Shown: piece after piece, positions 5,961 to 49,645 of the stretch
How the letters are laid out: every line of letters starts with the position of its first letter
Position numbering within the stretch: the first letter of the stretch is position 1
DNA from: Desulfoscipio sp. XC116
Lineage (GTDB): Bacteria; Bacillota; Desulfotomaculia; Desulfotomaculales; Desulfallaceae
Length of the DNA stretch: 64,000 nt
Assembly (NCBI RefSeq): GCF_039851975.1
Contig: NZ_CP156660.1
Location: 3,105,035 to 3,169,034, forward strand
Reading direction: 5' to 3'
Made by a program: the position numbers and the translations under genes
The notes under the pieces: generated by a model
Told to the model about the DNA's origin: nothing
Seen by the model: only the letters and a program-made list of their open reading frames with translations
Databases searched by the model: none

Positions 5961-7167
5961 AACACCTCGCAGCGGCAGGCTGCATATTGCCCTGTTCGGC
6001 AGGCGGAACGCTGGAAAATCAAGCTTGATCAACGCCCTGACCAGTCAGGAACTGGCCATTGTCTCTCCGGTTGCCGGAACCACCACCGACCCGGTATATA
6101 AGTCCATGGAAATACTGCCCATCGGTCCGGTGGTCTTAATTGACACCGCCGGGCTTGACGATGAGGGTGAACTGGGTGCCAAGCGGGTCGCCAAAAGCAT
6201 GGCGGTGCTCGCTAAAACCGATCTGGCCCTGCTGGTAATAGATCCGGAGCAGGGAGTCAACCAAACCGAGCTAGAGCTGGTTGAAACAATCAAACAAAAA
6301 AAGCTGCCGGTAATCGGCGTGATTAATAAAACCGATCTCTACGAAGTAAATACCGATTTTTCCGAGCAGCTGGCCGGTATTCCCACCGTTAAAGTAAGCG
6401 CCCGCACCGGGCGCGGCTTAACCGAGCTGAAACAGATGATGGTACAGCTGGCTCCGAAAGACTGGACAGCGCCCACTATTGCCGGAGACCTGGTACCGCC
6501 GGGGGAAGTGGCAGTGCTGGTTTGTCCCATCGACCTGGCGGCTCCCAAAGGACGGCTGATACTGCCCCAGGTGCAGACAATCAGGGATATGCTGGACCAC
6601 GACTGTTTGACCATGGTAGTGAAGGAAAGAGAACTAAAAGCCGCCTTAAACAAGCTAAAAAAGCCCCCGGCGCTGGTAATTACGGATTCGCAAGTTTTTT
6701 CAAAAGTGGATGCAGACACACCACCCGGCGTGCCCATGACCTCCTTTTCCATCCTGTTCGCCCGCTACCAGGGGGATCTGGCTACCCTGGTTTCCGGCGC
6801 GCTGGCCGTGGAAGACCTGGAACCGGGGGATAAAGTTTTAATTGCCGAGGCCTGCACCCACCACCGGGTAGCCGATGATATAGGCACGGTCAAGATACCC
6901 CGCTGGCTGCGCCAGTCGGTGGGCGGCGAGCTTGATTTCCACTGGTCCAGCGGCATTGAGATGCCCTCCGACCTGGAAAGCTACAAACTGGTAGTCCACT
7001 GCGGCGCGTGCATGATCAACCGGCGGGAAATGTTATCCCGCATGATGACCGCCGGCGCCGCGGGAGTGCCCATTGTCAACTACGGGGTAATAATTGCTTA
7101 TATGCTGGGCATTTTGCGCAGAGCCCTGGAACCTTTTCCCGATGTGCTGGCGCTGCTGGATAATTAA
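5953..7167 (+). CDS. hydF: [FeFe]-hydrogenase H-cluster maturation GTPase HydF
   Basis: 404 residues, the usual HydF length. The N-terminal Ras-like GTPase domain shows P-loop GRRNAGKSS (~16-24), G3 DTAGLDD and G4 NKTD. The C-terminal domain carries the cluster-binding residues of the family: EACTHHR and VHCGACMINRREM. HydF is the scaffold on which the 2Fe subcluster made by HydE/HydG is assembled and passed to apo-hydrogenase. hydE and hydG are not in the window. The 8-bp overlap with aspA implies one operon. Four degraded copies of its 3' end occur elsewhere in the window (26661, 40060, 49428, 53826). Confidence 0.96.
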   Translation: MNETPRSGRLHIALFGRRNAGKSSLINALTSQELAIVSPVAGTTTDPVYKSMEILPIGPVVLIDTAGLDDEGELGAKRVAKSMAVLAKTDLALLVIDPEQGVNQTELELVETIKQKKLPVIGVINKTDLYEVNTDFSEQLAGIPTVKVSARTGRGLTELKQMMVQLAPKDWTAPTIAGDLVPPGEVAVLVCPIDLAAPKGRLILPQVQTIRDMLDHDCLTMVVKERELKAALNKLKKPPALVITDSQVFSKVDADTPPGVPMTSFSILFARYQGDLATLVSGALAVEDLEPGDKVLIAEACTHHRVADDIGTVKIPRWLRQSVGGELDFHWSSGIEMPSDLESYKLVVHCGACMINRREMLSRMMTAGAAGVPIVNYGVIIAYMLGILRRALEPFPDVLALLDN

Positions 7168-7184
7168 AACCCCCATGCCAAAAT

Positions 7185-7231
7185 AAGCCACCGGCTATTT
7201 TCAGGCATCAATGCCCGGAAGCCGGTGGCTT
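7185..7231 (+). terminator. Hairpin after hydF
   Basis: The 12-bp arms AAGCCACCGGCT (7185-7196) and AGCCGGTGGCTT (7220-7231) are perfectly complementary. The T-tract after the stem is weak. The same hairpin with a diverged loop follows the hydF fragment at 40060-40369. Confidence 0.65.
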
Positions 7232-7232
7232 T

Positions 7233-7440
7233 CGCTGTTATAAATCCGTCATACCTTGTTGCCTTCCTGCCAGTCCACAAGGTCGGCACCCCGAAAGGGT
7301 ATTTCAGAGCTCTATAGCTAGCCTGCGTTTTCCTCTATCAACGCTTCACATGCAGGCTCGCGACCAGCCGCGCATGACTCGGTGTCATTGGTGTTGCTAA
7401 TCTTTCACATGGGGCTCTTTCATCCCCCACTCTATGCCGG
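7233..7440. other. Noncoding block rich in inverted repeats
   Basis: No gene is seen. The strand sense is uncertain. Possible stems include AGCCTGC (7319) with GCAGGCT (7351), and a CACCCCGAAAGGGT stem-loop. The look is of a structured RNA or the noncoding end of a lost insertion element, but it does not share the conserved core of the two IS110-linked blocks described below. Confidence 0.3.
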
Positions 7441-26660: not shown

Positions 26661-26847
26661 GGGAGTCAACCAAACCGAGCTGGAGAGCCACAAGCTGGTA
26701 GTCTACTGAGCGCGTGCATGATCAACCAGCGGGAAATGCTATCCCGCATGATGGCCGCCGGCGCCGCGGGAGTGCTGATGGTTAACTACGGGGCAATAAT
26801 TGCTTATATGCTGGGCATTTTGCGCAGAGCCCTGGAGCCTTTGAATT
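26661..26847 (+). pseudogene. hydF fragment 1 (internally deleted)
   Basis: 26661-26684 matches hydF 6253-6276; directly after, the sequence matches hydF from ~6974 to ~7131 (AGCCACAAGCTGGTAGTC..., CGTGCATGATCAACC). About 700 bp between are missing and a stop interrupts the frame. It joins the IS256 remnant. Confidence 0.9.
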
Positions 26848-27429: not shown

Positions 27430-28437
27430 TTATTTTTTATCGCTTCCACCTAGTAATTTAATTTCCATATCTTCTAATGCCTCTATATAGTCTTTCTCCG
27501 CCTTGGAAACATCACCTAAATATAGCTCCTTATATTTCTTATACTCTTCCTTTGCTTTGAGTTCAGCTGTCTTAGCACTGATCTTCCCAGCATGGGTTAG
27601 AATTTCATGCTTGGACAATTTCAGAAATCCATCCAATGTTTCAATCCAATCTGACATATACATTGGTATTCTTCTTCTTGCTTGCATTTCAGCAAATTCA
27701 AGATAAGCAGAAACTATGCTGTTTAATGCAGATAACTCCTCTTCTGTACAATAGTTTTTTGCTACTAATGCATCCGCTTGTTTAGGCTGTTCTCCTTTAA
27801 AACTAAGCATTCCCATATAAGGTTTATCTGCATCCGCCGAGTAATAAATCTTTTCTGCTGCAGTTTGCCCATGAGCTGCCCAATGCATCTTATTCTGTAC
27901 CGTCTTAAAAAACAAAGTCGATACTTCTGTTCTTGGGTCATAGTCAACACTTGTCGCATAAATATCAAGTACTTTTCTCCAGAATACTTTTTCTGATGAC
28001 CGAATATCACGAATTCGCTCCAACAATTCATCAAAATAAATTCCGCCACCATTATTTTTTAAAAGGTCATCATTCATCGCAAAGCCTTTTTTCATAAATT
28101 CTTTAAGTACGCTACTTGCCCAAATCCTAAACTGAGTTCCTCGCAAAGATTTTACACGATAGCCCACAGAAATAATTACATCTAAATTATAGTAGTCTAC
28201 TTGATATGTTTTACCGTCAGCTGCAGTTGTTGCAAAATTTGCAACAACTGAATTACGTGTCAGTTCACCTTCATTAAATATGTTTTTTATGTGACGAGAA
28301 ATTGTAGACTTATCACGCTGAAATAATTCTGCCATTTGGTCAATAGATAACCAAACGGTATCACCGTCAAAAGTAGTTTCTATTTTAGTTAAACCATCTT
28401 CTGTATAGTACATTATGATTTCAGAGTTCATATTCAT
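27430..28437 (-). CDS. RhuM-family protein
   Basis: 335 residues with the RhuM hallmark: VWLSIDQMAELFQRDKSTIS, then HIKNIFNEGELTRNSVVANF, YNLDVIISVGYRVKSLRGTQ and FRIWASSVLKEFM. RhuM proteins carry a BRO/KilA-like N-terminal DNA-binding region, occur in genomic islands and phage-linked loci, and have no settled biochemical role. Stand-alone gene at the left edge of the defence block. Confidence 0.9.
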   Translation of the reverse strand: MNMNSEIIMYYTEDGLTKIETTFDGDTVWLSIDQMAELFQRDKSTISRHIKNIFNEGELTRNSVVANFATTAADGKTYQVDYYNLDVIISVGYRVKSLRGTQFRIWASSVLKEFMKKGFAMNDDLLKNNGGGIYFDELLERIRDIRSSEKVFWRKVLDIYATSVDYDPRTEVSTLFFKTVQNKMHWAAHGQTAAEKIYYSADADKPYMGMLSFKGEQPKQADALVAKNYCTEEELSALNSIVSAYLEFAEMQARRRIPMYMSDWIETLDGFLKLSKHEILTHAGKISAKTAELKAKEEYKKYKELYLGDVSKAEKDYIEALEDMEIKLLGGSDKK

Positions 28438-28685
28438 TCCCCTTAAACACTTTTCCTTTATTATACATGTTTCAACAAAATATTTCCATTATATTACTTT
28501 TTGCAAGATTTAAATTTTCAGTTTTTTTACTATCCTATCAATAGGAATCTGTCCTTCCTCATCATCAAACTCTACATTTATGTTGATATGTGTGTCTGCT
28601 TTTTTGTGGGAGAGCGATACAACCGTCTCCACATGCCTTCTAGGATACAAAAAAGATGCCGCTGGAAGCTGGTTGGGCCTTGGTG

Positions 28686-30639: not shown

Positions 30640-31131
30640 GATATATTAACAATACTACATTTAACTTTGCTTAGCAAATGGAGTAAAGCATGGCACCAAC
30701 TCACTATCAGACACTAGGCATTTCGGCAGTATGCTACTGCTCACAAACGTACTTTTTCTTTCTTACTGCCGCCCCCGAAACACCTTCACATTATAATAAT
30801 TCAGACATTTCACCGAACAAAATTTACTCCGGGAGTTAGCATAATAATACGCTTCTCCGAAGCACTTGCAAATCTTTATTTTCAATCCTCAAAATACTTA
30901 TTTTTTCCTATCAAAAAAACCAATATCATCTTTTTTATCTTCTCAAAGGTCTCAATACTTCTGGGCGTGGCAAACTCGCCCAAACCCCTTTTCTATCAAT
31001 GCTTTTCCCTCACTCAAGCAAGCAAACCGTTTCTGTATGCCTTGAGGAGATAAAAAAGATGCCGCTTGAGCCTGGTGGGGCCTTGGCGGACAGTGCTATT
31101 TTGACTACAGTTGTTCCATCTGGCCCAATAT
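30640..31131. other. Intergenic region between the ABC-F leader and jetC
   Basis: About 490 bp, AT-rich, no gene. It holds one copy (~31020-31080) of a ~65-bp direct repeat also found just downstream of the ABC-F gene (~28615-28682), so the ABC-F unit is flanked by the two copies. Confidence 0.5.
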
Positions 31132-34100
31132 CTACGCTAAAACTTTATCCGTTTTTTTCTCTTCTGCTTCAAGTTCAGCAAAGAATTCATCAAGTACTTC
31201 TTTGTTGCGTTCTTTAAGTACTACGATGCCGTGCCGGTTAGGTGTATTAATTACTCGTAAAAGCAAGCCAAACTCACTGAGATAGTTACGGGAACTACTC
31301 CTTGGCGTAATACTGATAATTTTCTTCCTGAGTTTTTTCAAAACCTGAAATACAGTTTGCGCTTTTAAGGGGTCCAGATTGGCATCCCATTCATCAAGCA
31401 GTAAATATCCACCGCTCTTACCTTCCATTTTCTTTTCTTCTTTCACGCTAAGAATAGAATACATCATCATAAGCGATACAATGGCGTGTTCACCGCCGGA
31501 TAAACCACCACGCTCGGTCACCACCCTCATCTGTTGTTCATGGGTCTTTTTAAACCACATTACCAGACGGCGATGGCCACCGCCCTCTTCTTTATTGCGA
31601 TATTCGAGTTGAACCGTGTAGTTCATAGGAACGAAAACTTCATTCAGTCTTTCAGAAATTGCCCGGATAGAACTGGTAATGATACCTTCAACCGTTCTAT
31701 AATCGGACTCAACGATATTTCGGAAAGAGGCAAGTTCCTCCTCAAGCCGTTGTTTGTCACTCATATTCTTCTCAAACTCTAGTTTTAGAATTTCATAGTC
31801 TTTGACTGCGGACTCTTTAATTGGCCTCATTGTCAGAATGCGCAATTGCTTTAATGAGTGATTAATAACCAGACGGCCCTGAGTATATTTTTGTTCTTCA
31901 ATAATTTCCTGACTTTCAAGGTTGAGTAATTCCATAAACACATCGAAGCCTGGCATATACTCTTGTTGAACAGCTTCATAAAACTTGCCATTATACAGAA
32001 GACGAAAAATCGGCAAACAATCTCCTAACGTAATCTGCGAAAAGTTATCTTCACTAAGGCGCCGGTAATCGTATTCATCGTCCAGAGTCGGCGTAACATC
32101 TTTTTTAAGCTCCTCTAATTGCTTCGCTAAAAGATTATTATCCTCGTTTAGTTTTTGAATAACACCGTCTATCTCTTTTAATTCCTTTTCAACCGGGGCA
32201 ATTCTGAGTTGGATTTGTTCAAGCTGTTGACGATACTCGTCTTGCTTAATGGCCAGATTATGGAATTCTTGCAGCAGCTTACGATGTTTCTCCCGTTCCA
32301 CCTTTAATCTTTCAAGTGCAAGCTCATATTGATTTAAAAATTCAAAATCAATTTCCTGGTGCTTGTTAAAATATTCCTGGTATTGTTCTAAACTCCTTTG
32401 AAATTTCTCCTGATTTTCCTTTAGCTCATTGATCTTCTTTTTCAAGACTCCAATATCGATTGAACAGTTATTGGCCTGATTGCGCAGCTCTGTAATGGAC
32501 TCTACCAGTTGCTTCTTTTCAGGCATACGATCAATTACTTTTTGAGCGTCTACAACTTTAACGCGTTGCTCTTCCCGCCGCGACTTTTCAAGTCTGAGAT
32601 TTTCAATTTCCTTAGTTAGGTTACCACTATCAGTCAGAATTGCGTTAAGCTGCTGCTCATAAAGATATAGATTTTCTGACTTGGCCTGAGTTTCCTCCAG
32701 AGATAAAACGCCTTCATCTTCCAGCAAAGAATTCTCGATTTCAAGATAAAAAGTTTGCCGGGAAAAGTATCTGTCAAATTCATTGTTCCATTGCTCAAAG
32801 CTACTTAAAAGCTTATTCTTTGCTTCATAGGCTTGCTTAAGAGTTGCCAGCTTGTCTTCCTCCTGCGCCAACAACCCAAGCCAAACTTGAATATCTGAAT
32901 TGACTTTCTCCAGTTTTTCTTGATTTAACTTGTAGTCCGCTAATCTTGATTCCAGTTTAGATGTTTGGGCAATGTTAGCTTCGATCTTACTCTTTGTCTC
33001 TATCTGCAGTTTTTTGCTGCTTTCCAACAACTCAATCTGCTCTTTTAACTCTGTCGCTTTTGTAAGGATCTCATTTAATTCAAATGATAAGGTTGGATTT
33101 TGTTGATCATACGCTTCTTTAAATACATCTTTAACTGAATTGATTATTTCTTGGAACCCGCGGCATTTTGTTTCCTCCACCTGAAAAGCATCTTCGTTCT
33201 TACGATACTCTTCAAGATTTTTTCTTAATTGAGCGGTTTTTTCTGTTAATTCGCTTAGTTTGGAAAGTAAATTATCAAGATCATGCTTTTGGGCTTCAAG
33301 CATTGCTGTGATTTCTTCTTGTTTAGAGTACCGAGCACTTAATTCGATGGTTCTTGCTTCTGCTGTACTGATTTTTGCCTGCAAAATAGTCCTGGTATAT
33401 TCTCTGGCGGCAGTACTCAGAAAATAACTTACCTTGTCAGGATCATACCCTCTTATTCCGATGTTATCTTTAATAAGTCCGTTATCACTGAGGTACCCGC
33501 TGATTTGCCGCAACCAGGAAACTGCTTTCTTGGCATTCGCGGGATTAATATTGTTTTTGAACGAAAGGCCAAATGGTAAAGGCTCTAGAGAATTGTCCGA
33601 GGCATACTCATTCAATGGAACATGATAGTGCCCGGAAAAAGGAAGCAAATCCTTTTCATCCGCCTCAACCAGGATGGTATATTTTAAGAGGGATAAATTC
33701 TTCTCTTTCTCTTGATTAAGTTCACTATCCTTAAATTCGAACACATCTTGAAAAGCATAGGTTTCAAAACCCTGTTTAGCCATCGACTCCCGTTGGGAAG
33801 AGTCAAATATTCCTTGGTCAATTGTTTCAAGTTGATCTTTAAACTCAACGATTTGTTGATTTACCCGTTCCGTTTCCAAATTCAACTCATTTTCTATTTG
33901 GCGGGATTCTTTGATCTTTTGCGCATATTCCGCTGAACCCAGAGGGTATTTTTCTAACTTTGCTTGCGCTTTTTTTTGCTCGGCATAAAGATCGTCCATC
34001 GACTGCTGGGTCATATCAACTTGTGTTTTTACTTGCTGAAGGCCGTCTTCGATCTCTCGTATTTGCCTTGCTAATTCTTCGCCCGTTTTCTGTATACTGT

Positions 34101-35829
34101 GATATAAACCGACTACCGTTGGGCCATTCTGCTCAATAATTTCTTGATAACCCTTTTCCTTGACATTAAGATTCTCATTTTCATTGGTAAGGAACGAGAT
34201 AGCGGCACGCAATTGTTCGGCAGATTCCTTAGATAATTCATTTTCCAAGATAATCTTGTCCCGGTCTAACTCTTGGAGATCATCGCGGCATTGCTTAATC
34301 TGGGTTTCTTCCTGCGTGATATCCTTTTGTAAACTTTCAGTATCCTTTTCCAATACCTTTTCATGAAAACCAAGGGCCCGGGCAATTAAGGTTAGTTCCT
34401 TTTCAAGTCTTAATCTATCGTTCTCCCTATTGGAAAGTACTTCTCTTTTATCTTCAATATCCCATACAATACCTTCAATCCATTCCAGAAGAGTAGCTGC
34501 GTCCGGGTTTTCTTCCAGGATGGATTGGGCGCGGGCAATTTTCCGTTCAAGTTCTTCTTTCTCCGACTCTAAAGCTGCGACTTTTTCTTCATATTCTTTC
34601 TTAGCCTTTTCCTTATTGGTTGACTCTAATTCGTTTTGTTGAATCGCTAGTTTAGTCGTTACTAAGTCTGATTGCAGTTTTTCGATCAGTCTTTGCAATT
34701 CTTCAACGCCAAGTTCCTTTTGCTTAAGAATATCGAGAAATTCTTTAATTTGATGATACTTACTCTTGCCTTCGTCAATTTCATGTTCAAGATTCGATAC
34801 TGCTTGGCTTACGCTCACCATTTGCTCATTGACTTCCTGTATTTGGGATATACACTGGTCGGACTCAGTCTGAATTGTTTCCTTCTGCTTCAGAATAGCA
34901 TTCAATTCTTCTTCGACTTGAGCTCTTTGGACATTCTGTTCATTTAGGGTCTGGTCATTTACCGAAATCTTGACTTTGATGCCTTCCAATGTTTTTGTAT
35001 TGTAGTCAATGAGCGCATATAATTTACCGACAAAATCAGCGGAGCCGGCCATGAGTTCCTCATCACGCCGTTCCTTCTCCTTCTTGTCAATTTCTTTATT
35101 CCTGAGATCGAGTTCCAATTGTAAACAGTTATTCGAAACAGTTACAACATCCTTCTCTTTCTCGGCTTGTTGCTGGATCATCCGATCAAGGTTCGTAATG
35201 CTTTCTTCAATACCCATCATCCGTGCGAATTGGTTGAAGCGCTCAACATCTTTAATCTGGGTAAATTTACTGGTCTCCCCTTGTTTCCAATACAAAAGAT
35301 ATTTGTCCGGAGATATGCCCAAAGCCTCGATTTGTTTCCTATACTCATCCAATTTACCGTACTTATCATTTTTATTACTATACACATACTCGCGGACAGT
35401 CTTTAATCCTTCGATTGAATCCGATTCTTTAATTGTAAAATACTTGGAACGTATTTTAGGTTTTTCATGTTCTGTAATTCCCTCAAAGCGAGCGTTAATC
35501 TCGATAAACATCTTATTATCTTCCAGTGACCCGTCATTATAAAAGATCAAGCGTCCTTTGAAGAGCCAGGGGTTCTCATCAGAATACGCTTGACTTGAAG
35601 AGATTAGATCAACTGGATCCGCTTCATTGACATCAGCGTTGAGAATACAAATAAACACAGCCGCAATTGTGGACTTTCCCGTACCATTCAGACCGCCAAT
35701 AAGGACGTTGTCCTTATAATGGTTGGCGATTTCAGAAATAGTTTCAAACCCTTGGGGATTGGCAAAATAAACCGATTGCTTCTTGAATTCCCGGGCATTT
35801 TCAAACGTCAACTCAATAGGATAAAGCAT
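31132..35829 (-). CDS. jetC: Wadjet SMC-like ATPase JetC
   Basis: 1565 residues. Walker A GGLNGTGKST (45-54) at the N-terminus, ~1300 residues of coiled coil interrupted by a hinge-like globular part near the middle, and at the C-terminus the ABC signature LSGGEHAIVSLMM and Walker B YLLLDEWDANLDP. This is a condensin (MukB/MksB)-type SMC. With JetA, JetB and JetD it forms the Wadjet complex, which extrudes and cleaves plasmid-sized circular DNA. Last gene of the operon, 17 bp after jetB. It is longer than the JetC proteins I know (about 1100 residues), mainly in the coiled coils. The subtype was not determined. Confidence 0.85.
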   Translation of the reverse strand: MLYPIELTFENAREFKKQSVYFANPQGFETISEIANHYKDNVLIGGLNGTGKSTIAAVFICILNADVNEADPVDLISSSQAYSDENPWLFKGRLIFYNDGSLEDNKMFIEINARFEGITEHEKPKIRSKYFTIKESDSIEGLKTVREYVYSNKNDKYGKLDEYRKQIEALGISPDKYLLYWKQGETSKFTQIKDVERFNQFARMMGIEESITNLDRMIQQQAEKEKDVVTVSNNCLQLELDLRNKEIDKKEKERRDEELMAGSADFVGKLYALIDYNTKTLEGIKVKISVNDQTLNEQNVQRAQVEEELNAILKQKETIQTESDQCISQIQEVNEQMVSVSQAVSNLEHEIDEGKSKYHQIKEFLDILKQKELGVEELQRLIEKLQSDLVTTKLAIQQNELESTNKEKAKKEYEEKVAALESEKEELERKIARAQSILEENPDAATLLEWIEGIVWDIEDKREVLSNRENDRLRLEKELTLIARALGFHEKVLEKDTESLQKDITQEETQIKQCRDDLQELDRDKIILENELSKESAEQLRAAISFLTNENENLNVKEKGYQEIIEQNGPTVVGLYHSIQKTGEELARQIREIEDGLQQVKTQVDMTQQSMDDLYAEQKKAQAKLEKYPLGSAEYAQKIKESRQIENELNLETERVNQQIVEFKDQLETIDQGIFDSSQRESMAKQGFETYAFQDVFEFKDSELNQEKEKNLSLLKYTILVEADEKDLLPFSGHYHVPLNEYASDNSLEPLPFGLSFKNNINPANAKKAVSWLRQISGYLSDNGLIKDNIGIRGYDPDKVSYFLSTAAREYTRTILQAKISTAEARTIELSARYSKQEEITAMLEAQKHDLDNLLSKLSELTEKTAQLRKNLEEYRKNEDAFQVEETKCRGFQEIINSVKDVFKEAYDQQNPTLSFELNEILTKATELKEQIELLESSKKLQIETKSKIEANIAQTSKLESRLADYKLNQEKLEKVNSDIQVWLGLLAQEEDKLATLKQAYEAKNKLLSSFEQWNNEFDRYFSRQTFYLEIENSLLEDEGVLSLEETQAKSENLYLYEQQLNAILTDSGNLTKEIENLRLEKSRREEQRVKVVDAQKVIDRMPEKKQLVESITELRNQANNCSIDIGVLKKKINELKENQEKFQRSLEQYQEYFNKHQEIDFEFLNQYELALERLKVEREKHRKLLQEFHNLAIKQDEYRQQLEQIQLRIAPVEKELKEIDGVIQKLNEDNNLLAKQLEELKKDVTPTLDDEYDYRRLSEDNFSQITLGDCLPIFRLLYNGKFYEAVQQEYMPGFDVFMELLNLESQEIIEEQKYTQGRLVINHSLKQLRILTMRPIKESAVKDYEILKLEFEKNMSDKQRLEEELASFRNIVESDYRTVEGIITSSIRAISERLNEVFVPMNYTVQLEYRNKEEGGGHRRLVMWFKKTHEQQMRVVTERGGLSGGEHAIVSLMMMYSILSVKEEKKMEGKSGGYLLLDEWDANLDPLKAQTVFQVLKKLRKKIISITPRSSSRNYLSEFGLLLRVINTPNRHGIVVLKERNKEVLDEFFAELEAEEKKTDKVLA

Positions 35830-35846
35830 CGACTAATACCCCCTCT

Positions 35847-36488
35847 CTAGAACAGTGCTTGCGGTTTAGGATTGGGAACTTCTTTTCTGAAAAATTCCAA
35901 AACAACATCCAGCGAATAGTTTTGCGACATGGTCACGTCAGTAAGTCGTTTAAGTAAAATCGGTGTCATAAACGCTTCACCGATACGGGTTATCTTATAA
36001 CTTTGCGTTTCCTTGTCTTCTTTTATCAGGCAATAGTCTATTAAGGGTTGCAATATGCTGACAATCTTTTGATCCGGTCTGTCTGTTACGGAAGAGTCGA
36101 TAACTTCAAGCAACTCACGGACACTGGTGGAAGGGTGCCCAAGCGTGATCTGGTTGTAATACATCAGCAAAAAAAGCAGGATGGGTGCAGTTTTTAAGCG
36201 ATCTGTCAAAATGATGGGATGAACCGTCTGGACATAAACGTAACGATTAATAATGTCATCATAAATAATCTTAGCCGGTATGGTTTCTTGTTCCAGACGC
36301 ATATTACTGATCGCTATAAAATCTTTAATTTCCTGATCACTTCTGGCGTCAAGGGCTCTTTTTAATCCATCTCTTGTCAGTCCAATCCAGTCCCGCCTTA
36401 AAATAATGCTCGAACTGGCGGCAAGTAACTGAATAGCATTTTTATATTTGGGAAGTAACGAAACGCTATTACCTGTTGTTTGTTCCAT
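35847..36488 (-). CDS. jetB: Wadjet MukE-like subunit JetB
   Basis: 213 residues from ATG 36488 (GGAGTG 8 nt upstream). Winged-helix type protein: FLLMYYNQITLGHPSTSVRE, LIDYCLIKEDKETQSYKITR. Size and position between the kleisin-like and SMC-like genes match the MukE/JetB (KITE) subunit, which binds the kleisin and DNA. Its start overlaps jetA by ~20 bp, so the two are translationally coupled. Confidence 0.8.
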   Translation of the reverse strand: MEQTTGNSVSLLPKYKNAIQLLAASSSIILRRDWIGLTRDGLKRALDARSDQEIKDFIAISNMRLEQETIPAKIIYDDIINRYVYVQTVHPIILTDRLKTAPILLFLLMYYNQITLGHPSTSVRELLEVIDSSVTDRPDQKIVSILQPLIDYCLIKEDKETQSYKITRIGEAFMTPILLKRLTDVTMSQNYSLDVVLEFFRKEVPNPKPQALF

Positions 36489-37992
36489 TTTCTTCACTCC
36501 TGACTAATCCTCTTAATTCTCCTAACGTGTTGCCTGCTTCCAGTTCATCTAATTGGGGGAAGCGTACAAGTTCATCTCCGCTCAATAAATTACTGGCACC
36601 TTTTACGGTTAGGAACTCCCAGTTACCGATTTGTTTAGTTTTTGAGGTCCCCGTTTTTAAAAGGTTAAAATAACTGGGCATTAGTGTTGATAGATAAGAG
36701 ACAAGGTCCATAAAGGTTACCGCTTTCAGACGATCCGGCTTCTCAAAAAGGTAAATCCAGTCTTTAATCGTTTCCTCTCGTCCGGCATTTAGAACTCCCA
36801 TCTCAAGCACTTCTTCAAACTCTTGAAGGTAACTGCTGTCTCCTGCTGTATTTGGATTGTATTGTCCTTCTATTTGGGCAATTTCTTTCATATCGGCATA
36901 TTCAGGAGCAGTGTTTTCAATTTCCGTATGCAGAATATCCAATCTTTTATTCGGTGTAAAATCAAATCCGAAATCACCTCGTTCACCGTCTTCGATCGCC
37001 TGCCATACATCATTCGGCGATATCCCGCCAAATATCTTCGCCGGCAAATAAGCTACAGGTTTATCCTCTGTTTCCATTTGGATCATGATTTCATAAGCCG
37101 ATTGGATTTCGCTTTCTTCGTAATATTCATGTTGAACGGCCGACTTGATCTTTTCCCGCAAGGCTATGCTGAACTTTTCTCTGGATATACTTGCAGTCCA
37201 GACTTGCAAGGCCGCGATACTTATCGCTTTGGCGACTTCTCCTAACCCTTCTTGGCCAATCAGAATAGCTTTTTGGATAATTCCCTCAATATAATGATTT
37301 CTCAGGCGAAAATCATCGAGCTTTTCCGTTATGGTCTCTTCTCTGGTATAATCTTCAATTTTATGGACAGATTCAAGGATCAAATCTTTAAGCTTACTAA
37401 TTTCCTCAAGGGCATTTTCCTTTTGGATATAATAGGGTATATTGCGCTGAACGAGCTCGGTCATGCGGTGAACCGAGTTTAATAATTGCAGGAAGTTTGG
37501 CATACTGTCCAATCTTAACTTGCGACTCGTTTCAAGGTTTAACGAAGATAACTCGGCGATAAAAATCTCTTTTTGCAAGTCATCCTTTTCATGATATACA
37601 TAGTTTCTTTGCACCATATCTAAAAGCAGCGTACCCATGCGGATTCCTGCATTGGTGATCCTAATTCCGTCCTGCTTTGTTTTATCAACCCATCCTGCGG
37701 AACGCATTTGATAAAGGACCTGCTGGACAAATTCGTCAGTGATGGGACGTTTAAAACGATTTCTTAAGCGATTGGCCAACTGATCTTCTGTGTCCAGCCG
37801 CTCATCCGGATCGAAAGCGGTTTGAAGAGCTAAATGAACCAAAAGCAAAAAGTCTAGTTGAAGATTATACTGGTTGGTTTCGCGCACCAGAAACGATAAA
37901 ACCCGGCTCAAGTGTGACAGTTCATTAAGACTGCGCCCCAAAATATCGGTATCACCCTCTGAGTTAGGCAAGAATGGAATAGGCTCAATCAT
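36469..37992 (-). CDS. jetA: Wadjet kleisin-like subunit JetA
   Basis: 507 residues from ATG 37992 with GGAGGG 8 nt upstream; the upstream in-frame start at 38013 lies inside jetD. N-terminal winged helix (LANRLRNRFKRPITDEFVQQ), a long helical middle (~170-330) and a C-terminal domain. This matches MukF/MksF-type kleisins that bridge the SMC heads. It overlaps the jetD stop by 8 bp. Confidence 0.8.
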   Translation of the reverse strand: MIEPIPFLPNSEGDTDILGRSLNELSHLSRVLSFLVRETNQYNLQLDFLLLVHLALQTAFDPDERLDTEDQLANRLRNRFKRPITDEFVQQVLYQMRSAGWVDKTKQDGIRITNAGIRMGTLLLDMVQRNYVYHEKDDLQKEIFIAELSSLNLETSRKLRLDSMPNFLQLLNSVHRMTELVQRNIPYYIQKENALEEISKLKDLILESVHKIEDYTREETITEKLDDFRLRNHYIEGIIQKAILIGQEGLGEVAKAISIAALQVWTASISREKFSIALREKIKSAVQHEYYEESEIQSAYEIMIQMETEDKPVAYLPAKIFGGISPNDVWQAIEDGERGDFGFDFTPNKRLDILHTEIENTAPEYADMKEIAQIEGQYNPNTAGDSSYLQEFEEVLEMGVLNAGREETIKDWIYLFEKPDRLKAVTFMDLVSYLSTLMPSYFNLLKTGTSKTKQIGNWEFLTVKGASNLLSGDELVRFPQLDELEAGNTLGELRGLVRSEENGTNNR

Positions 37993-39277
37993 TGGCGTTT
38001 CCCTCCAAAACAATTGCCTCTAACAAATCAAAATCCCATAAAAAATCTTCTTGCTCCGTTAAGTGGTTTGTACCGGTCAATTCTTTTAATTGCTTTAAGC
38101 CTTCCGCATAGGAAACCAGGAAGAGCGTTCCTTGTTTTTTGGCAACGAACTTAAACTGTTCAAATCCCAAAGCATAAAGTTTTTCAACCATAGCGATTGC
38201 AGCCCTGTCATAGTCGCTCCAAATAATAATTTGACCGACACCCGCATTTTTGAAATGACGCAGCAAATCATAAACAGCAGAGCGTACTTGCCCGTCAAAC
38301 CCAACGATGCCAATATGAGCCCTCTGTTCATAGGGTATATGTTTAATCAGCTTTCGAACGACCGCTCTGTTCTCAGCAGCAAAAATAGTTCTGATATTCT
38401 TGGCGTCTATTGATTGCAGATCATGCACTTCTTCGTCAGTCACTTTAGATAAAACAGGAGCTTTTTCATAGTTATACATACCAAATGTAAAAGCCAACCG
38501 GCACTGGACAGCCAGTATGATATCCCTGTTTCCCGGCCGTGTTGTCAGGTGGATACTGCTGACGGGGTCGCCTATAATTTCTTCCAGTTCTTCCAACAAT
38601 GCAACCATGTTTCCATCAAACATTTTTGACGCGGCATGAACTTTTTCTTTAAAATAAGAGTTTGTCCCGATCTCTTTCCAATCAAAAAAAGGTGCTTTAG
38701 AAGCGGTTATGAGAACAGAAAGGAAAAAATCTATACGTTTAATTGCAATTTCTCGTTCGTTGACTTGCTTCAAAAGCCATTGCCTCAATATTTCAAAACC
38801 CACATGCCCATAAGGGTTGGTCAGGTTGTTCAGAATTTCGGTAAACGCTTTTATAAATTTCTTATTTTGCTCTTCATTTTCCCGCGCTTGAGTTTTCCAG
38901 TAATTCAGCAAATTGAAACCCGGAACATAATATGTATTTTTAAGGTTAATTCCCCGGTCAGTAAATTCATTAACCTGGATAAGAATACCCAGGGTTACCC
39001 ACTTATTAGTCTGATGAAAAAATGCCAAGCCGCTTGACTCGGAACCTGACCAGTTTTTAAGTTGCGAAGCAGTCTTCTTTTTAATCCATGGAGTTTTATT
39101 TTGCATTTCTGGTGGTATATCGTTTTCTTCAAGAGAATAAATCAGTGTTTTTGTTTTGTACTGAACAATTTTTTGCTGCTGGTGTATCACTCTCTCATGA
39201 ATTCCTCTATCGTCTGCAATATCGGAAACGACGATTTCACCATTGTTCAAAAATATATTTAAATAGCCGTCATGCAT
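37985..39277 (-). CDS. jetD: Wadjet Toprim nuclease subunit JetD
   Basis: 430 residues. The C-terminal half is a Toprim domain of the topoisomerase VI/JetD type: acidic residue in FAAENRAVVRKLI, then the DxD-like QIIIWSDYDRAAIAMVEKL. The N-terminal half (DUF3322-like arm) is helical. JetD is the DNA-cleaving subunit of Wadjet. Here it is the first core gene rather than the last; its ATG immediately follows the stop of the HARE-HTH gene, indicating coupling. Active-site residues appear present. Confidence 0.8.
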   Translation of the reverse strand: MHDGYLNIFLNNGEIVVSDIADDRGIHERVIHQQQKIVQYKTKTLIYSLEENDIPPEMQNKTPWIKKKTASQLKNWSGSESSGLAFFHQTNKWVTLGILIQVNEFTDRGINLKNTYYVPGFNLLNYWKTQARENEEQNKKFIKAFTEILNNLTNPYGHVGFEILRQWLLKQVNEREIAIKRIDFFLSVLITASKAPFFDWKEIGTNSYFKEKVHAASKMFDGNMVALLEELEEIIGDPVSSIHLTTRPGNRDIILAVQCRLAFTFGMYNYEKAPVLSKVTDEEVHDLQSIDAKNIRTIFAAENRAVVRKLIKHIPYEQRAHIGIVGFDGQVRSAVYDLLRHFKNAGVGQIIIWSDYDRAAIAMVEKLYALGFEQFKFVAKKQGTLFLVSYAEGLKQLKELTGTNHLTEQEDFLWDFDLLEAIVLEGNAND

Positions 39278-39715
39278 TTACTCTTGAAGCCCCCCTTCGC
39301 CTGGAGACTTCTCAAACTTTTTCAATTTAATGATATTTCCCGGCAAGGCTTCAAACAACTCCGGATAATGTCCGCATCGTGCCCTTATTTGATTATACTG
39401 AACCTTGCCGCCATTTTTCTGTCGGTATAATCCTCTATTAGAAATCTCGTCGGCAAGAGCAGCAGCATGCATTGTATGTTCTTCCGCTTCTAAAAGTACA
39501 ATTTTCATCGCTTCCTGCAGAGTATATTTTGGTGTCTCCATATTAGATTCCTGTTCATAATTGACCATATTAGCCCCATATTTCAGGATAATATAAACAG
39601 GTTGATTGTCTTTGAGCAGCACTACCTTCCCGTTTTTTTCAACCATTTCAAACACCGAATCTGCATCCACTCTTATCTTGTCAAACGAAATAAGACTATC
39701 CAACTTTATTTCCAT
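39278..39715 (-). CDS. Phd-like / HARE-HTH fusion protein heading the Wadjet operon
   Basis: 145 residues. Residues ~10-48 (VDADSVFEMVEKNGKVVLLK, then QPVYIILKYG) look like a Phd/YefM antitoxin DNA-binding fold. Residues ~62-135 (TLQEAMKIVLLEAEEHTMHA, ALADEISNRGLYRQKNGGKV, FEALPGNIIKLKKF) look like a HARE-HTH (HB1/ASXL) domain, found in restriction and chromatin proteins. It is directly coupled to jetD. It could be the operon's repressor or a DNA-sensing accessory. RBS GAGGTG precedes the ATG; a small inverted repeat TTATAC...GTATAA (39781-39800) lies upstream near a TATAAT box. Confidence 0.65.
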   Translation of the reverse strand: MEIKLDSLISFDKIRVDADSVFEMVEKNGKVVLLKDNQPVYIILKYGANMVNYEQESNMETPKYTLQEAMKIVLLEAEEHTMHAAALADEISNRGLYRQKNGGKVQYNQIRARCGHYPELFEALPGNIIKLKKFEKSPGEGGLQE

Positions 39716-39780
39716 TATTTATCACCTCAAGATTGAGATTAACAGCCTGTGCAGCATTTGTCAATACATTTGTGCGAACA

Positions 39781-39800: not shown

Positions 39801-39873
39801 ACAAAAAGTAAGCGTCAAATTACAACGTGTATAGAAAAAAGCCAAAAACCATGTCATGAACTGGTTTTTAGCT

Positions 39874-39993
39874 CTATTTGCAAGCGACCTGAACTTCCGG
39901 ACTCCATGGCAGAAAATCCTCCAGGAGTTCAGGATATTGGCCGAACTCTACACCCGGCAGCTGGTTGAAAATATAGTAAAGGTACTTATATGC
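39874..39993 (-). pseudogene. IS66-family transposase C-terminal remnant
   Basis: AYKYLYYIFNQLPGVEFGQY then PELLEDFLPWSPEV is the conserved IS66 C-terminal tail, with its stop at 39874. The rest is missing; the 5' side joins repeat copy 2. Confidence 0.8.
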
Positions 39994-40052
39994 TCGGGTA
40001 GCTGTTGGGCCTGGCTTACGCCATTTCCAACAGCTACCAAAAAGGGACAGTC
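39990..40052 (+). repeat. ~63-bp repeat, copy 2
   Basis: Matches the minus strand of 7459-7521 at most positions, with conserved ends TGCTCGG.TAGCTGTTGGGC and AACAGCTACCAAAAAGGGAC. It lies between the IS66 remnant and hydF fragment 2. Confidence 0.75.
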
Positions 40053-40059
40053 CCTCACT

Positions 40060-40440
40060 AAACCACCAGGTGGCCGATGATATAGGCACGGTCAAGATAC
40101 CCCGCTGGCTGCGCCAGTCAGTAGGCGGCGAGCTTGATTTTCACTGGTCCAGCGGCATTGAAATGCCCTCCGACCTGGAGAGCTACAAGCTGATAGTCCA
40201 CTGCGGTGCCTGCATGATCAATAGACGTGAAATGCTATCTCGAATGATGGAAGCCAGCGCCGCGGGAGTGCCCATTGTTAATTACGGGGTAATAATTGCT
40301 TATATGCTGGGCATTTTGCGCAGAGCCCTGGAACCTTTTCCGGATGTACTGGCACTGCTGGATAATTAAAACCCCCATTGCCCAATAAGCCACCGGCCAT
40401 TTCAGGAATCGATACCTGCAAGCCGGTGGCTTTTGCTGTA
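40060..40440 (+). pseudogene. hydF fragment 2 (last 99 codons plus hairpin)
   Basis: Matches hydF 6860-7240 through the stop and the downstream hairpin. The frame from GTG 40070 to 40369 is intact and keeps the cluster-ligand motif VHCGACMINRREM. By my codon-by-codon comparison 20 codons differ synonymously and 3 change the residue (V to I, T to E, G to S). Without the GTPase domain it is presumably non-functional, but a 99-aa product is possible. Confidence 0.92.
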
Positions 40441-42327: not shown

Positions 42328-43446
42328 TTATTCTTTATCCATGGGTTCGATTGTAACGTCACTCTTGTCAACGATGCGTACTAATTTATTTGTTTCATCC
42401 AAAAATACGCTCATTCCGGCAGGCGCTTTTGCAGAGACATCTTGCATTTTTCCGCTTACTTCATCATATATGGCGTTCAAATAACCACCAAACTTGAGAA
42501 CGTATTTTTTTGCATGATACTCGACACCTTGAATAATCGTTACACCCTCTTGCTTATTCACGATAACACTTTGAGGAATATCGAGAGAGTACTCCTGCGG
42601 ATAACCTTCGATTACAATATTTTTTACCCCATTACTATTAATGTCGAATTCAGCATACATGATTTTGCCGTCAGGAGTTTTAGTTTCGCAACGGGCTTCA
42701 TCGCCATCTATTTGGAGCATGGTATTGCCTTGCTTAATTAGCTCATTTGGTGTAACAACTTTTCCTGTATCCGAACGAGTCCATGTCTTAATCGTTTGCA
42801 TGTTATTATCATTGATATTTTTATAATCTTTTTCCTTTAACCATCCGATAATCTTTTTTTCATATTCATCTTTACTTACAGTTTTACCTTTAGTTCCCAA
42901 GAACATATGAAAAGATAGTAATGCATAAGCAATCACTTCCAAAGTAGGATAATCTATATCGTAGTCCCTTAAAGAGATGAAACGATTTAATGAATCCCTT
43001 ATTACACCCATTAGATGATTTTCGTCAAACGGCATCAATATGATATTTATGGTTTTAGCGTTAAGATATTTCTCAAATCCATTTATGCTGGAAGTAGCTT
43101 CCTTATCCATTTTATTTGCATAATATTTGTCAACTGATTTGATAAAGGTATTAGCTGGTTCTTGACAGTTACCAATGAGAATTAATTGATATACTTTAGA
43201 GGGGACATCATTTATTAGACTTATGAGCCAACCCCAAATGTCATCTTTAGAAAAGAGATTAACTGACGATTTGACTTGTATTGCCCTAAGAACAGAGCCA
43301 TCGTCATCTATAAGTGCAATATCAACTTTATCATTCGGAGTTGTATATTCAACAGATATTTCATGCCAATCGTTTTCTGTACAAGCATTAAAAATTGAGA
43401 TTATTCCTTGATATATGTATCCACGACTTCCTTCTTGTCCGCCCAT
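42328..43446 (-). CDS. Putative Cap4/DUF4297-like nuclease-domain protein
   Basis: 372 residues. N-terminal ~100 residues look like a PD-(D/E)xK endonuclease of the Cap4/DUF4297 type: GSRGYIYQGIISIFNA, then KVDIALIDDDG and AIQVKSS, the D...QxK core. The C-terminal two thirds contain a helical part (~160-215) and a beta-rich end with no recognised domain. Such nucleases act in abortive-type antiphage defence, usually with a sensor domain or partner; neither a cyclase nor a partner is adjacent. The neighbouring helicase-nuclease gene runs in the same direction ~115 bp upstream. Confidence 0.55.
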   Translation of the reverse strand: MGGQEGSRGYIYQGIISIFNACTENDWHEISVEYTTPNDKVDIALIDDDGSVLRAIQVKSSVNLFSKDDIWGWLISLINDVPSKVYQLILIGNCQEPANTFIKSVDKYYANKMDKEATSSINGFEKYLNAKTINIILMPFDENHLMGVIRDSLNRFISLRDYDIDYPTLEVIAYALLSFHMFLGTKGKTVSKDEYEKKIIGWLKEKDYKNINDNNMQTIKTWTRSDTGKVVTPNELIKQGNTMLQIDGDEARCETKTPDGKIMYAEFDINSNGVKNIVIEGYPQEYSLDIPQSVIVNKQEGVTIIQGVEYHAKKYVLKFGGYLNAIYDEVSGKMQDVSAKAPAGMSVFLDETNKLVRIVDKSDVTIEPMDKE

Positions 43447-43562
43447 AACTACAACTCCTCATAATTAATTTCACCTATTTAATGATTTCGCATTATTGCT
43501 ATAATTACTGCTTGCACGAACTACGTGTTATTAGCCTTATTTCCAGCTGCGATTTGCCTTAC

Positions 43563-46310
43563 TTACTGTTCACTCAAAACTCTCTGTATCTTTTCCCGCT
43601 CCCTACTGCCATTGGTAGGAAGCCGCAGCATTGGCACTCCGTATTTCGCTAGAATTGCATCCTTCAGCGCGTCACGGCGCTGCTGATCCGGATTGTTTTC
43701 ATGAAAGGCAAAGCCGTCTACTTCAACCACAAGGACACAGGCCTTGTCCTGCTTATAGTACACAACAAAATCCAGCGATGCTCTGTTGTTGACCAACTTC
43801 ACCTCTTCAGTGGTAAGCAAATCCACGGTGTTCAACAGGTTCCGCAGCAGCATCCCTTGCACATAGCTGTACCGGTTATATTGCGGCTCCGCAAGAATCT
43901 CCTCCAGAAGCACACGAAGAGCTTCTTCCGACTGATACCGGGCACTTTTATTCATCTTTGCTTTCAGCGGGATTAACTTGCTGGAATACTGCCGGTAAAG
44001 CAGGTCGAAGACCGATACGATATTGCTCTCAATCACGTTCTCGTCAAGGGTGCTGTACTTGATGTAGCGAATCAAATCGCCAATATCCTTGCCTTTCTTG
44101 AAAAAGAGGTCGTGATCCGTTACCAGCACAAACTGTCTTATAGCTCGGGAAACAGCCACATTGACCATCTGCGGGTCATCCACAAATTTAAGTCTCATCT
44201 GGCCGTCCCGAGTGCTGTCCAGTACGGTGGACATAATCATAACGTCCTTTTCCCGGCCCTGGTATTTATGTACCGTATCGCTTTCGATGCCGTCGGGTAG
44301 CAGTTGCTCCGCCTTGTTGGCCTGTTTTCGGTAAGGGGTAACAAAGCCGACATTCTCGCGGTTCTCCGCAAGAACGGGATTTTTCAGGATTTCCTCAACT
44401 GTAACATCAAGCTCCCGCTGGTTATAGTTCCCCTTTTTTTCACCCTCTGTAACCCGTCGCAGATGGTTTCCTTTAGCGGTTTTGTAAAGCGCCAGGGGGC
44501 ACTCCGACAGGTTCGAGTTGGTATATGGAATCAACTCTCCGTCATAATATTTCTGGTTGCAGAACTCAATGATTTGGGGATGGCAGCGGTAATGCTCCCG
44601 CAGGATTTCGCAGGGAAGGCTGCTTCCATAGAGGCTAATAATAGATGACAGGATATTGTGACGAAAATAGTTATATACAGGATTAGGCGGCGATGTTTTC
44701 AGCATTGGTTCAATTTTTTCGTCGGTAATCTGGGGAAGTTGCTTCACATCTCCTACAATAATTACATTCCGGCAGCAGGAAAAGGCCAGTGTGCCGGTGA
44801 GAATATCCACCTGAGAAGCCTCATCGATAACAACATAATCCAGCAGGTAATTCTGTGGAATAGACCGGCGCAATGCGTGGGTTGTACTAAGGATGACAGG
44901 GAATGTCTTGATAAACTCCTGGAACCTCACCTTGAAACTTTTTCTGGTAAAGTCAGGCTCCGGCAGCCCGCTGTGGCTTTGATACAGACACTTACGGAAC
45001 AACCTTTCAGAATACTGCTGGTGCTTTTCGAGCAGTGCATCAAAGGAGGCGCTGTCCAGTTGGCTTTCCTGGACAGCTATTTCGTTTTCCAACTGCCGGG
45101 TCTGCTGCCGGTAAAATTCCCTCTGAAGTGACAACAAAATAGACAATTCTTGCTGCTGCAGCCTTTTATGATCAAACACTCCATATTTAAAGAGCAGCTT
45201 CAACTTATATAGAAGCCTGTTGGTTTGATTCCGTTCTTTCACAAAAGAAGTTTCAGCCAGGAAAGAAATGATTCGGTCCGGAGTTGCCCTGAACAGGGGA
45301 AGCTTGCCAATTTTCTGGACATCCTGTCTGGCATAGTATTCCTCAAAATGCTCCTGTTCCAATTGCCAGGCCCGCAGCTCCTGCCAAAGTTGCGCCCGTT
45401 TCCGGTCTACCCTCAATAACCGGTTCAGCTTAATGTTCAGGGCTTCAATCCGCTGAATCAACTCTTCCTTATCTTCTTCGCAATCCCATCCGTCCACCCG
45501 GGCTACGGGCATATTGGCAAAAAAGGTATCCTGATTGCTACTTTTGCCTAGCAAGGCCGTTAGGAAGCCGTAACCCTGCTTTGCCATCTTTTCAATGACG
45601 TTCTTAACTGCCTCATTATTGTTAGATACAACCGCTACGCTTTTTCCTTGAACCGCTACGAGGTTTGCGATAATATTCAGGATTGTCTGGGTTTTGCCGG
45701 TGCCGGGCGGTCCTTTGATAACTGAAATAGAGCTTGTAAGGGCATTCTCCAGTGCAGCCTTCTGGCTGAGGTTAAAACTGAACGGAAAGATGATATTGTC
45801 GGTGTCGGGAGTTTGCAGATCAATCGCCTGACGGTTCAGGTAACGGCTCAGTACACTTTCCGGATGAACAAAAGTAAGGTGCTCCATTTCCCGTTTCAAA
45901 AAAGCCTCTTCTTCCGGGTTGTCTGACGTATATTGAGAGATATCCCTTAGATAGGCCAGTATTTGTTGGGCATCCTGGTCAGCGGCTCCATTCTTGACTA
46001 GCGAGAATGATTGTGGCCTTACTGTAAGGGATTCACCGTTATATCGGATAATTCGGATACGTTCCCGAAAATCAAGAATAAGCTGCGGATCATAGACAGG
46101 CATGCCTTCCACATAAGCAACTTGTCCGTCTAGTTCAATTACTTTCGGTTTATTAATAACAACCACATTATTTTTATTATATGGGTAGATGGTACTTATT
46201 CCTCGATAAGTAATTTTCACCTTCTTATTTTTGAGGTCATAATCGATACTATTTATTTCTTCGGTTTTATCTTTTCCTTTAACCAGAACCATTATTTCTT
46301 TTTTGTTCAT
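43563..46310 (-). CDS. SF1 (UPF1/DNA2-like) helicase with C-terminal DUF2726 nuclease-like domain
   Basis: 915 residues. Walker A GPPGTGKT (200-207), motif II VIDEASQVD, YRCHPQIIEFCNQKYY, VHKYQGREKDVMIMSTV and VNVAVSRA, the SF1B helicase set. The C-terminus (~815-915) has LDFVVYY then VLVVEVDGFAFHENN and QQRRDALKDAIL, a DUF2726 restriction-endonuclease-like fold (E-V-D...). A single-protein helicase-nuclease of this type is common in defence islands. The length and all motifs appear intact. The substrate (DNA or RNA) is not evident. Confidence 0.85.
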   Translation of the reverse strand: MNKKEIMVLVKGKDKTEEINSIDYDLKNKKVKITYRGISTIYPYNKNNVVVINKPKVIELDGQVAYVEGMPVYDPQLILDFRERIRIIRYNGESLTVRPQSFSLVKNGAADQDAQQILAYLRDISQYTSDNPEEEAFLKREMEHLTFVHPESVLSRYLNRQAIDLQTPDTDNIIFPFSFNLSQKAALENALTSSISVIKGPPGTGKTQTILNIIANLVAVQGKSVAVVSNNNEAVKNVIEKMAKQGYGFLTALLGKSSNQDTFFANMPVARVDGWDCEEDKEELIQRIEALNIKLNRLLRVDRKRAQLWQELRAWQLEQEHFEEYYARQDVQKIGKLPLFRATPDRIISFLAETSFVKERNQTNRLLYKLKLLFKYGVFDHKRLQQQELSILLSLQREFYRQQTRQLENEIAVQESQLDSASFDALLEKHQQYSERLFRKCLYQSHSGLPEPDFTRKSFKVRFQEFIKTFPVILSTTHALRRSIPQNYLLDYVVIDEASQVDILTGTLAFSCCRNVIIVGDVKQLPQITDEKIEPMLKTSPPNPVYNYFRHNILSSIISLYGSSLPCEILREHYRCHPQIIEFCNQKYYDGELIPYTNSNLSECPLALYKTAKGNHLRRVTEGEKKGNYNQRELDVTVEEILKNPVLAENRENVGFVTPYRKQANKAEQLLPDGIESDTVHKYQGREKDVMIMSTVLDSTRDGQMRLKFVDDPQMVNVAVSRAIRQFVLVTDHDLFFKKGKDIGDLIRYIKYSTLDENVIESNIVSVFDLLYRQYSSKLIPLKAKMNKSARYQSEEALRVLLEEILAEPQYNRYSYVQGMLLRNLLNTVDLLTTEEVKLVNNRASLDFVVYYKQDKACVLVVEVDGFAFHENNPDQQRRDALKDAILAKYGVPMLRLPTNGSREREKIQRVLSEQ

Positions 46311-49331: not shown

Positions 49332-49427
49332 CTAGTTGATAATGCGTTAATTCGCCAAATGATCCTAATTTCCTTCAAAAAAATACACTTTAAGAATACA
49401 GTTTTTTAAGAAATTGGTTGTGGGACT

Positions 49428-49645
49428 GATTTTCACTGGTCCAGTGGCATCGAAATGCCCTCCGACCTGGAGAATTACAAGCTGATAGTCCACTGCAGCG
49501 CCTGCCTGATTAATCGGTAGAAATATTATCCCGCATGATGGCCGCTAGTATCGATGGTCAATTACGGAGTAGCCTAAGTACTGGACATTTTGCGCAAAGC
49601 CCTGGAGCATTTTCCCGATGTGCCGGCGCTGCTGGATAATTAATT
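49428..49645 (+). pseudogene. hydF fragment 3
   Basis: Matches hydF ~6940-7167 with several stops and small deletions; the ligand region reads HCSACLI then a stop. The end GCGCTGCTGGATAATTAA is preserved. More decayed than fragment 2. Confidence 0.88.

Follow-up and report, generated by a model that had tools for sequence, protein, structure and literature searches.

A putative autoregulatory leader gene of mobile cargo modules in front of a type III-like Wadjet operon of Desulfoscipio sp. XC116

Defence systems are costly and often mobile, and how new arrivals are switched on and restrained is an open question. Wadjet (JetABCD) is a plasmid-restricting immune system, and CapW is a WYL-domain regulator of defence systems. 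BrxR is described as a DNA-binding repressor of the WYL-domain type that binds repeats and is the leader gene of many unrelated defence systems (PMC9122601); CapK and CapS as repressors encoded upstream of diverse immune operons, CapS being STAS-like with a kinase partner (PMC13373217); and RptR as an immune-operon repressor, a helical dimer on 6-bp palindromes (PMC12255303). HARE-HTH domains in defence systems are reported fused to nucleases (PMC10853773, PMC12839542). In the open-access literature we found no earlier report of a HARE-HTH protein with Wadjet, or of a leader of HARE-HTH/Phd antitoxin type. Here we describe a Wadjet operon headed by a gene, p145, with relatives in front of quite different cargo.

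The Jet operon and its joint with p145

The window analysed, by which we mean the whole stretch of 64,000 nt, comes from Desulfoscipio sp. XC116 (GCF_039851975.1, NZ_CP156660.1, forward strand 3,105,035-3,169,034). Consistent with the original prediction of five overlapping or abutting minus-strand genes, p145 followed by JetD-A-B-C, all five open reading frames are present (Table 1), and all four Wadjet genes stand in one type III-like operon in the order jetD-A-B-C. PADLOC matched JetD3 (5.6e-29), JetB3 (9e-16) and JetC3 (1.3e-64) in the window; JetA, which has no PADLOC match, was assigned from its position and from homologues in other jet operons, being 38% identical to the protein in the JetA position of genome G033 (locus L018), and its true start is probably a few codons downstream of the listed TTG. 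JetD also matches DUF2399 in Pfam (8.4e-7), and its E302 and D355/D357 (D-x-D), which we take to be the catalytic residues, are invariant in 3/3 aligned sequences; in JetC, the motifs GGLNGTGKST (Walker A), GGLSGGEHA (signature) and LLLDEWD (Walker B) were read by eye. The 1565 residues of JetC, earlier singled out as long, are correctly counted but not unusual, the SMCs of Wadjet-II/III being described as tending towards longer coiled coils (PMC12647877). Searches of solved-structure chains gave no relevant match for JetC or JetB (single sequences) or for JetD (sequence and profile); for JetA, one IMG/VR stretch fitted the pattern and none was confirmed; and, beyond its own genome, a JetD search across 398 genomes of the phylum gave a single weak match (G475). 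The jet frames are not due to chance, because the four Jet proteins are 90-96% identical in genome G096; identity falls to 38-49% in G033 (JetD, JetA and JetB) and to 21-25% in the distant G029. Judged by its genes, the operon is a type III-like Wadjet, for which plasmid restriction is predicted.

Table 1. Features of the p145-jet region and of the hydF repeats (positions within the window)
Feature	Position	Strand	Description
p145	39278-39715	-	145 aa; leader gene; antitoxin-like N-domain and HARE-HTH-like winged helix (predicted)
jetD	37985-39277	-	430 aa; Toprim nuclease, type III-like; Pfam and PADLOC
jetA	36469-38013	-	514 aa; kleisin position; by position and homologues
jetB	35847-36497	-	216 aa; PADLOC JetB3
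jetC	31132-35829	-	1565 aa; SMC ATPase; PADLOC JetC3
Predicted p145 promoter with repeated boxes	39736-39773	-	-10 read by eye
Joint of p145 module and jet module	39278-39317	-	family homology stops, identity to G096 jet leader starts
hydF 3'-end region and repeats	5953-7238, 26675-26842, 40062-40439, 49427-49643		

The coupling of p145 to jetD without a gap, also foreseen in the original prediction, was confirmed: the p145 stop TAA lies directly before the jetD ATG. The jetDABC operon of G096 is 92.4% identical in DNA to window positions 31117-39317 (the limit lying at about 39314-39317), and this identity stops inside the last codons of p145, whose C-terminal end is 8-13 residues longer in the window than in the other 10 aligned homologues. 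The last 12 codons of the window gene fall within a jetD 5' leader, ribosome site included (by eye), that is common to G096. Because the extra C-terminal end lies in this common leader, the gapless coupling is best understood as a recombination scar. None of the jet operons of G096, G033 and G029 has p145 at the locus, and G096 and G033, both apparently among the 113 genomes of the class that were searched, gave no p145 match at E<=1e-6. G033 has its jetD in divergent orientation to jetABC; in G096 (L017 12136-13050), a Phd-like antitoxin and a RelE/ParE-like toxin (by eye) stand before jetD, in the place that p145 has in the window. A tblastn search for jet genes across the 32 loci of the p145 family, with the Jet proteins of the window and three of G033 as queries, found them in the window alone and in 0/31 other loci, the downstream stretches running from 638 nt (L067) to more than 10 kb; because of this choice of queries, other Wadjet operons, of type I or II, could be missed in the count.

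Further features surround the operon. The 3' end of hydF (5953-7167, plus strand) is repeated three more times (90.5%, 89.7% and 77.9% identity), a pattern like that left by tandem insertion of elements at this site; the copies at 26.7 and 40.1 kb enclose the p145-jet stretch. A repeat of ~54-63 bp follows jetC (31037-31090) and recurs beyond an ABC-F-like gene (28621-28683), in L017 (3846, 13084, 16722) and elsewhere in the genome itself (C1:1535432); in G096 its copies flank the toxin-antitoxin-jet stretch and a ppsA-like fragment, an arrangement that looks cassette-like. A RhuM-family protein (27430-28437; Pfam 1.1e-105, PADLOC PDC-S05 1.8e-167) adjoins the Wadjet operon, and a 372-aa protein with a PADLOC endonuclease-effector match and a 915-aa helicase (DUF2726, Mko-like matches) at 42328-46310 are likely a second defence pair. 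Directly upstream of the p145 promoter lies a putative remnant of an IS66-type transposase C-terminus (39870-40053, by eye).

The p145 family: protein, promoter, setting and cargo

The original prediction that p145 joins an antitoxin-like fold to a HARE-HTH domain stood at the level of prediction, where profiles, an AF2 model and fold comparison agree, with no single line being strong. HARE-HTH (PF05066) was matched in 11/11 family members at E<=1 (best 8.7e-5), the window protein scoring E 0.017 and 15.9 bits, under the Pfam cut-off of 25.9, and PhdYeFM was matched weakly in 3/11 (best E 0.014); Pfam gave no enzymatic domain for p145 and no WYL match at E<=1, either for the window protein or in the tally of 11 members. 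The AF2 model that we kept was built on an 11-row alignment (mean pLDDT 75), an earlier 4-sequence model (pLDDT 59) being set aside, and consists of an N-domain (about aa 1-44) arranged strand-helix-helix-strand-strand and a C-terminal winged helix (about aa 58-134; pLDDT 78-88 per 10-residue block over aa 61-130). VIA-align placed residues about 58-136 near forkhead and MarR DNA-binding domains with Z from 7 up to 8.4, values near 8 being within the range it calls common; its rows for p145 were mostly winged helix, and the lack of other folds there proves nothing. Foldseek aligned the N-domain with that of the VapB46 antitoxin over 40 columns (rmsd 1.6, prob 0.99, but E 0.29) and gave no match to the model at E<=0.001, and the p145 profile reached at best E 0.12 among PDB sequences, with unrelated names. 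There is no toxin partner gene beside p145 in the window, where jetD comes next. Codon comparison of 13 family pairs gave dN/dS of 0.02-0.13 in 11, with dS saturated in the other 2; the p145 frame is thus not due to chance and the gene is under purifying selection. We regard p145 as a predicted fusion of Phd-like and winged-helix (HARE-HTH-like) folds and as probably a DNA-binding regulator.

The putative promoter of the window gene (-35 TTGACA at -49, a 17 bp spacer, and -10 TAATCT by eye) carries the hexamer ACAAAT twice with a 12 bp distance, at -58 and -46 relative to the ATG, overlapping the -35. Among 26 dereplicated upstream stretches of the family, ACAAAT occurred in 19, as against a mean of 3.7 and a maximum of 9 in 200 shuffles, the exact box being missing in the other 7; its fullest form, ACAAATRTAT, occurred in 12/26 (shuffle mean 0.09, maximum 1), and two boxes stood exactly 12 bp apart in 10/26. 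Such boxes, lying over a promoter directly before a winged-helix gene, suggest on sequence grounds that p145 is autoregulated. Of the two roles that the original prediction had offered, that of operon repressor has gained indirect support; repression itself we infer.

Full-length relatives of p145 were found in three loci of the GTDB contigs, in 3/113 genomes of the class and in 6/398 of the phylum sample (own genome counted in each); the classes of G226, G181, G298 and G308 (3, 20, 15 and 26 genomes) held no further full-length member, and plasmid and phage records gave one HARE-only match, on a Rhodococcus plasmid, and no phage match. The family examined here comprises 32 loci, of which 21 come from IMG/VR and 11, the window among them, from genomes. 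Left outside it were HARE-only matches (G023 three times, G016, G018, G130, G146, G431 and G317) and the divergent two-domain matches of G471 and G295; one of these 11 loci (L048) has a match to a large serine recombinase (LSR), ~6 kb distant, and around the two divergent relatives there was no LSR match in 15-19 kb and no defence gene recognised by eye. Within the family, an LSR match ends at most 500 nt upstream of p145 in 18/32 loci (14/26 after dereplication) and lies 1.7 and 3.0 kb upstream in L001 and L064, respectively, while 12/32 loci have no LSR match upstream (up to 6 kb searched; short for L002, L070 and L071). Loci L019, L020, L041, L042 and L055 have a broken or partial LSR gene, and the LSR of L044 matches the PHROG integrase phrog_95 at 6.5e-150. 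To judge from gene order and similarity, seven of the 12 loci without an LSR match lie within phage tail modules; for L073 this context was checked with PHROGs, a tail protein lying upstream of p145 and a tape measure downstream. In L045 (and its near-duplicate L064) p145 follows an HNH-like gene and has no ACAAAT boxes of its own. The possibility that the window copy sits within an intact serine-recombinase element was rejected, tblastn finding no LSR in the window, and this copy would therefore be a remnant or a secondary capture.

Some loci also share flanking sequence. L041, L042 and the jet locus of G096 (L017) lie near a gene resembling rumA/rlmD, and the right ends of L019, L020, L044 and L045 have in common a ~140-bp block whose end is readable as the HVECVV tail of a rumA/rlmD-like gene, which suggests integration of these four at the 3' end of such a gene.

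The genes behind p145 are diverse. Apart from Wadjet in the window, p145-family genes head defence genes in six loci: PsyrT (4e-274) and PsyrA (6e-98) in L042, GmrSD-type proteins in L044, L056 and L068, SLFN_AlbA_2 in L060, and PDC-M27/Zac-like proteins in L001. The 1606-aa cargo protein of L041 has AAA and weak effector matches. Pfam gave nothing for a 327-aa protein in L059 and one of 342 aa in L066, nor PADLOC for a 335-aa protein in L066, so that, with part of the cargo scanned, immune cargo is supported for some of the loci and not for each. In several loci there is no gap, or even an overlap, between p145 and the gene that follows (e.g., L056-L058, L060-L064 and L066). Small second genes often follow it, of 69-71 aa ('MATYKEIQEYV') in L056-L059, L071 and L073, and of 94-109 aa in L060-L064 and L066; the former occur in both integrase and tail contexts, and the copy in L056 matches phrog_27283.

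Comparing loci pairwise, we counted those with a DNA match of at least 75% identity that covers p145 and at least 250 nt upstream (n=18, including the near-duplicates L057/L058, L063/L075, L068/L069 and L071/L073). In 9/18 pairs the identity runs from upstream through p145 and is lost at its 3' end, and in the other 9 it continues past p145 into shared cargo. The nine stopping pairs include L045/L064, which have the HNH-like gene rather than an LSR in common upstream, and the tail-module loci L067/L070, of which L067 covers only 638 nt downstream. The break is clearest in L059/L066, where 95.8% identity over 5.4 kb (recombinase genes and p145) ends at +394; in L019/L044, identity of 89.7% ends at +389, and in L055/L056, identity of 92.2% ends at +398. 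On the upstream side, L044/L045 are 98% alike in p145 and cargo without sharing the DNA upstream, and L060/L063 are about 90% alike in p145 and cargo with recombinases only 34% alike. Breaks thus occur at the 3' end and on the upstream side as well, which makes the promoter-p145 unit a joining site for modules on both flanks.

Origin and role of p145

We consider p145 to be, with moderate confidence, the autoregulatory leader of a mobile cargo module that in this genome has been joined to a Wadjet operon. Because its relatives head different immune operons as well as phage cargo, often behind an integrase gene, it looks like a travelling switch and not like part of one defence system. As a sequence-specific DNA-binding leader protein controlling its own promoter, p145 would sit on the ACAAAT boxes over the -35 and set the transcription of whatever cargo follows. 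Integrative elements and prophages would carry the promoter-p145 unit, placed between a serine integrase gene and variable cargo or, as a moron, within a tail module, and the cargo, much of it anti-phage or anti-plasmid, would be swapped through breaks falling at the 3' end of p145. In the window, a recombination that cost p145 its own stop may have brought the unit in front of a ready-made type III-like Wadjet operon, with the result that the gene now ends right at jetD. Dimerisation of p145, its binding to the boxes, a possible inducing signal and the direction in which the joining ran are, like repression, steps that we infer.

The other role in the original prediction, an accessory DNA-sensing subunit of the window's Wadjet complex, is highly improbable. 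The missing gap between p145 and jetD makes translational coupling likely, and JetABC chains contain winged helices (low-probability Foldseek rows to 8dk1 and 8as8); however, that coupling stems from the joint at the end of p145, and the subunit role was rejected on the lack of jet genes in the 31 other loci, in the stretches covered, an outcome named in the original prediction as refuting, and on the G096 operon, which does without p145. As far as gene neighbourhoods go, p145 is not a fixed part of Wadjet, and the comparison suggests that a Wadjet-specific meaning of the gapless arrangement gives way to a promiscuous, integrase-linked leader family. A third reading makes p145 an accessory of integration, working with the neighbouring serine integrase as its excisionase or directionality factor; in its favour, p145 is small, probably binds DNA and closely follows the LSR gene in 18 loci. 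We hold this to be improbable, as the 12 loci with no upstream LSR match, seven of them tail modules, argue against it, as does the observation that p145 stays with its cargo when the LSR differs (L060/L063 and L044/L045).

Alternatively, one could envision p145, carried by phages and integrative elements, as a sensor or effector in its own right, perhaps a sensor of modified DNA or an immunity factor resembling an antitoxin; in that case its proximity to defence genes would reflect a shared insertion site and not regulation. HARE-HTH domains fused to restriction enzymes have been proposed to read modified DNA (PMC10853773), stand-alone HARE-HTH proteins of G016 and G018 lie between large defence-like genes (by eye), and the occurrence of p145 in tail modules also fits. 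This is unlikely in our estimation, given a protein with no enzymatic domain by Pfam, the conserved promoter boxes, and the several loci in which p145 runs up to or into the gene behind it, as co-expression would predict. Returning to p145 as the leader of a mobile module, a stronger form of the idea, which we put forward tentatively, sees in promoter and p145 together a dedicated expression-and-exchange platform of integrative elements, with a constant, self-controlled promoter and leader gene placed behind the integrase and the 3' end of p145 as a docking point for swaps of immune cargo, into which Wadjet would have plugged; it would then be like an integron in pairing a promoter with an insertion site. 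If p145 is indeed such a leader, one family over Wadjet, PsyrTA, GmrSD and Schlafen-type operons would amount to a general device of control and exchange, and the genes behind its homologues would be candidates for new immune systems, e.g., those of L059 and L066.

Comparison with known systems

The window operon resembles Wadjet type III in its JetB3, JetC3 and JetD3 matches and its long SMC, and differs from it in a JetA without a PADLOC match and in the mobile leader gene in front. The C-terminal domain of p145 is like HARE-HTH, the profile being matched throughout the 11 members at E<=1 and under the Pfam cut-off in the window protein, yet in contrast to the nuclease fusions reported from defence systems it is joined to an antitoxin-like domain. 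That N-domain may in turn be like those of Phd/YefM antitoxins, by the weak Pfam matches in 3/11 members and by a similar N-terminal arrangement in the model; unlike such antitoxins, p145 has no paired toxin in the window, and large defence or cargo genes follow it. Its gene context is similar to that of CapK/CapS and RptR, from which it would differ as a predicted Phd-like/winged-helix fusion. In gene context p145 is like BrxR and CapW, a leader gene heading diverse defence operons, whereas it differs from both in having no WYL match, other predicted folds and direct rather than inverted repeats, and in being tied to serine integrases and phage tail morons.
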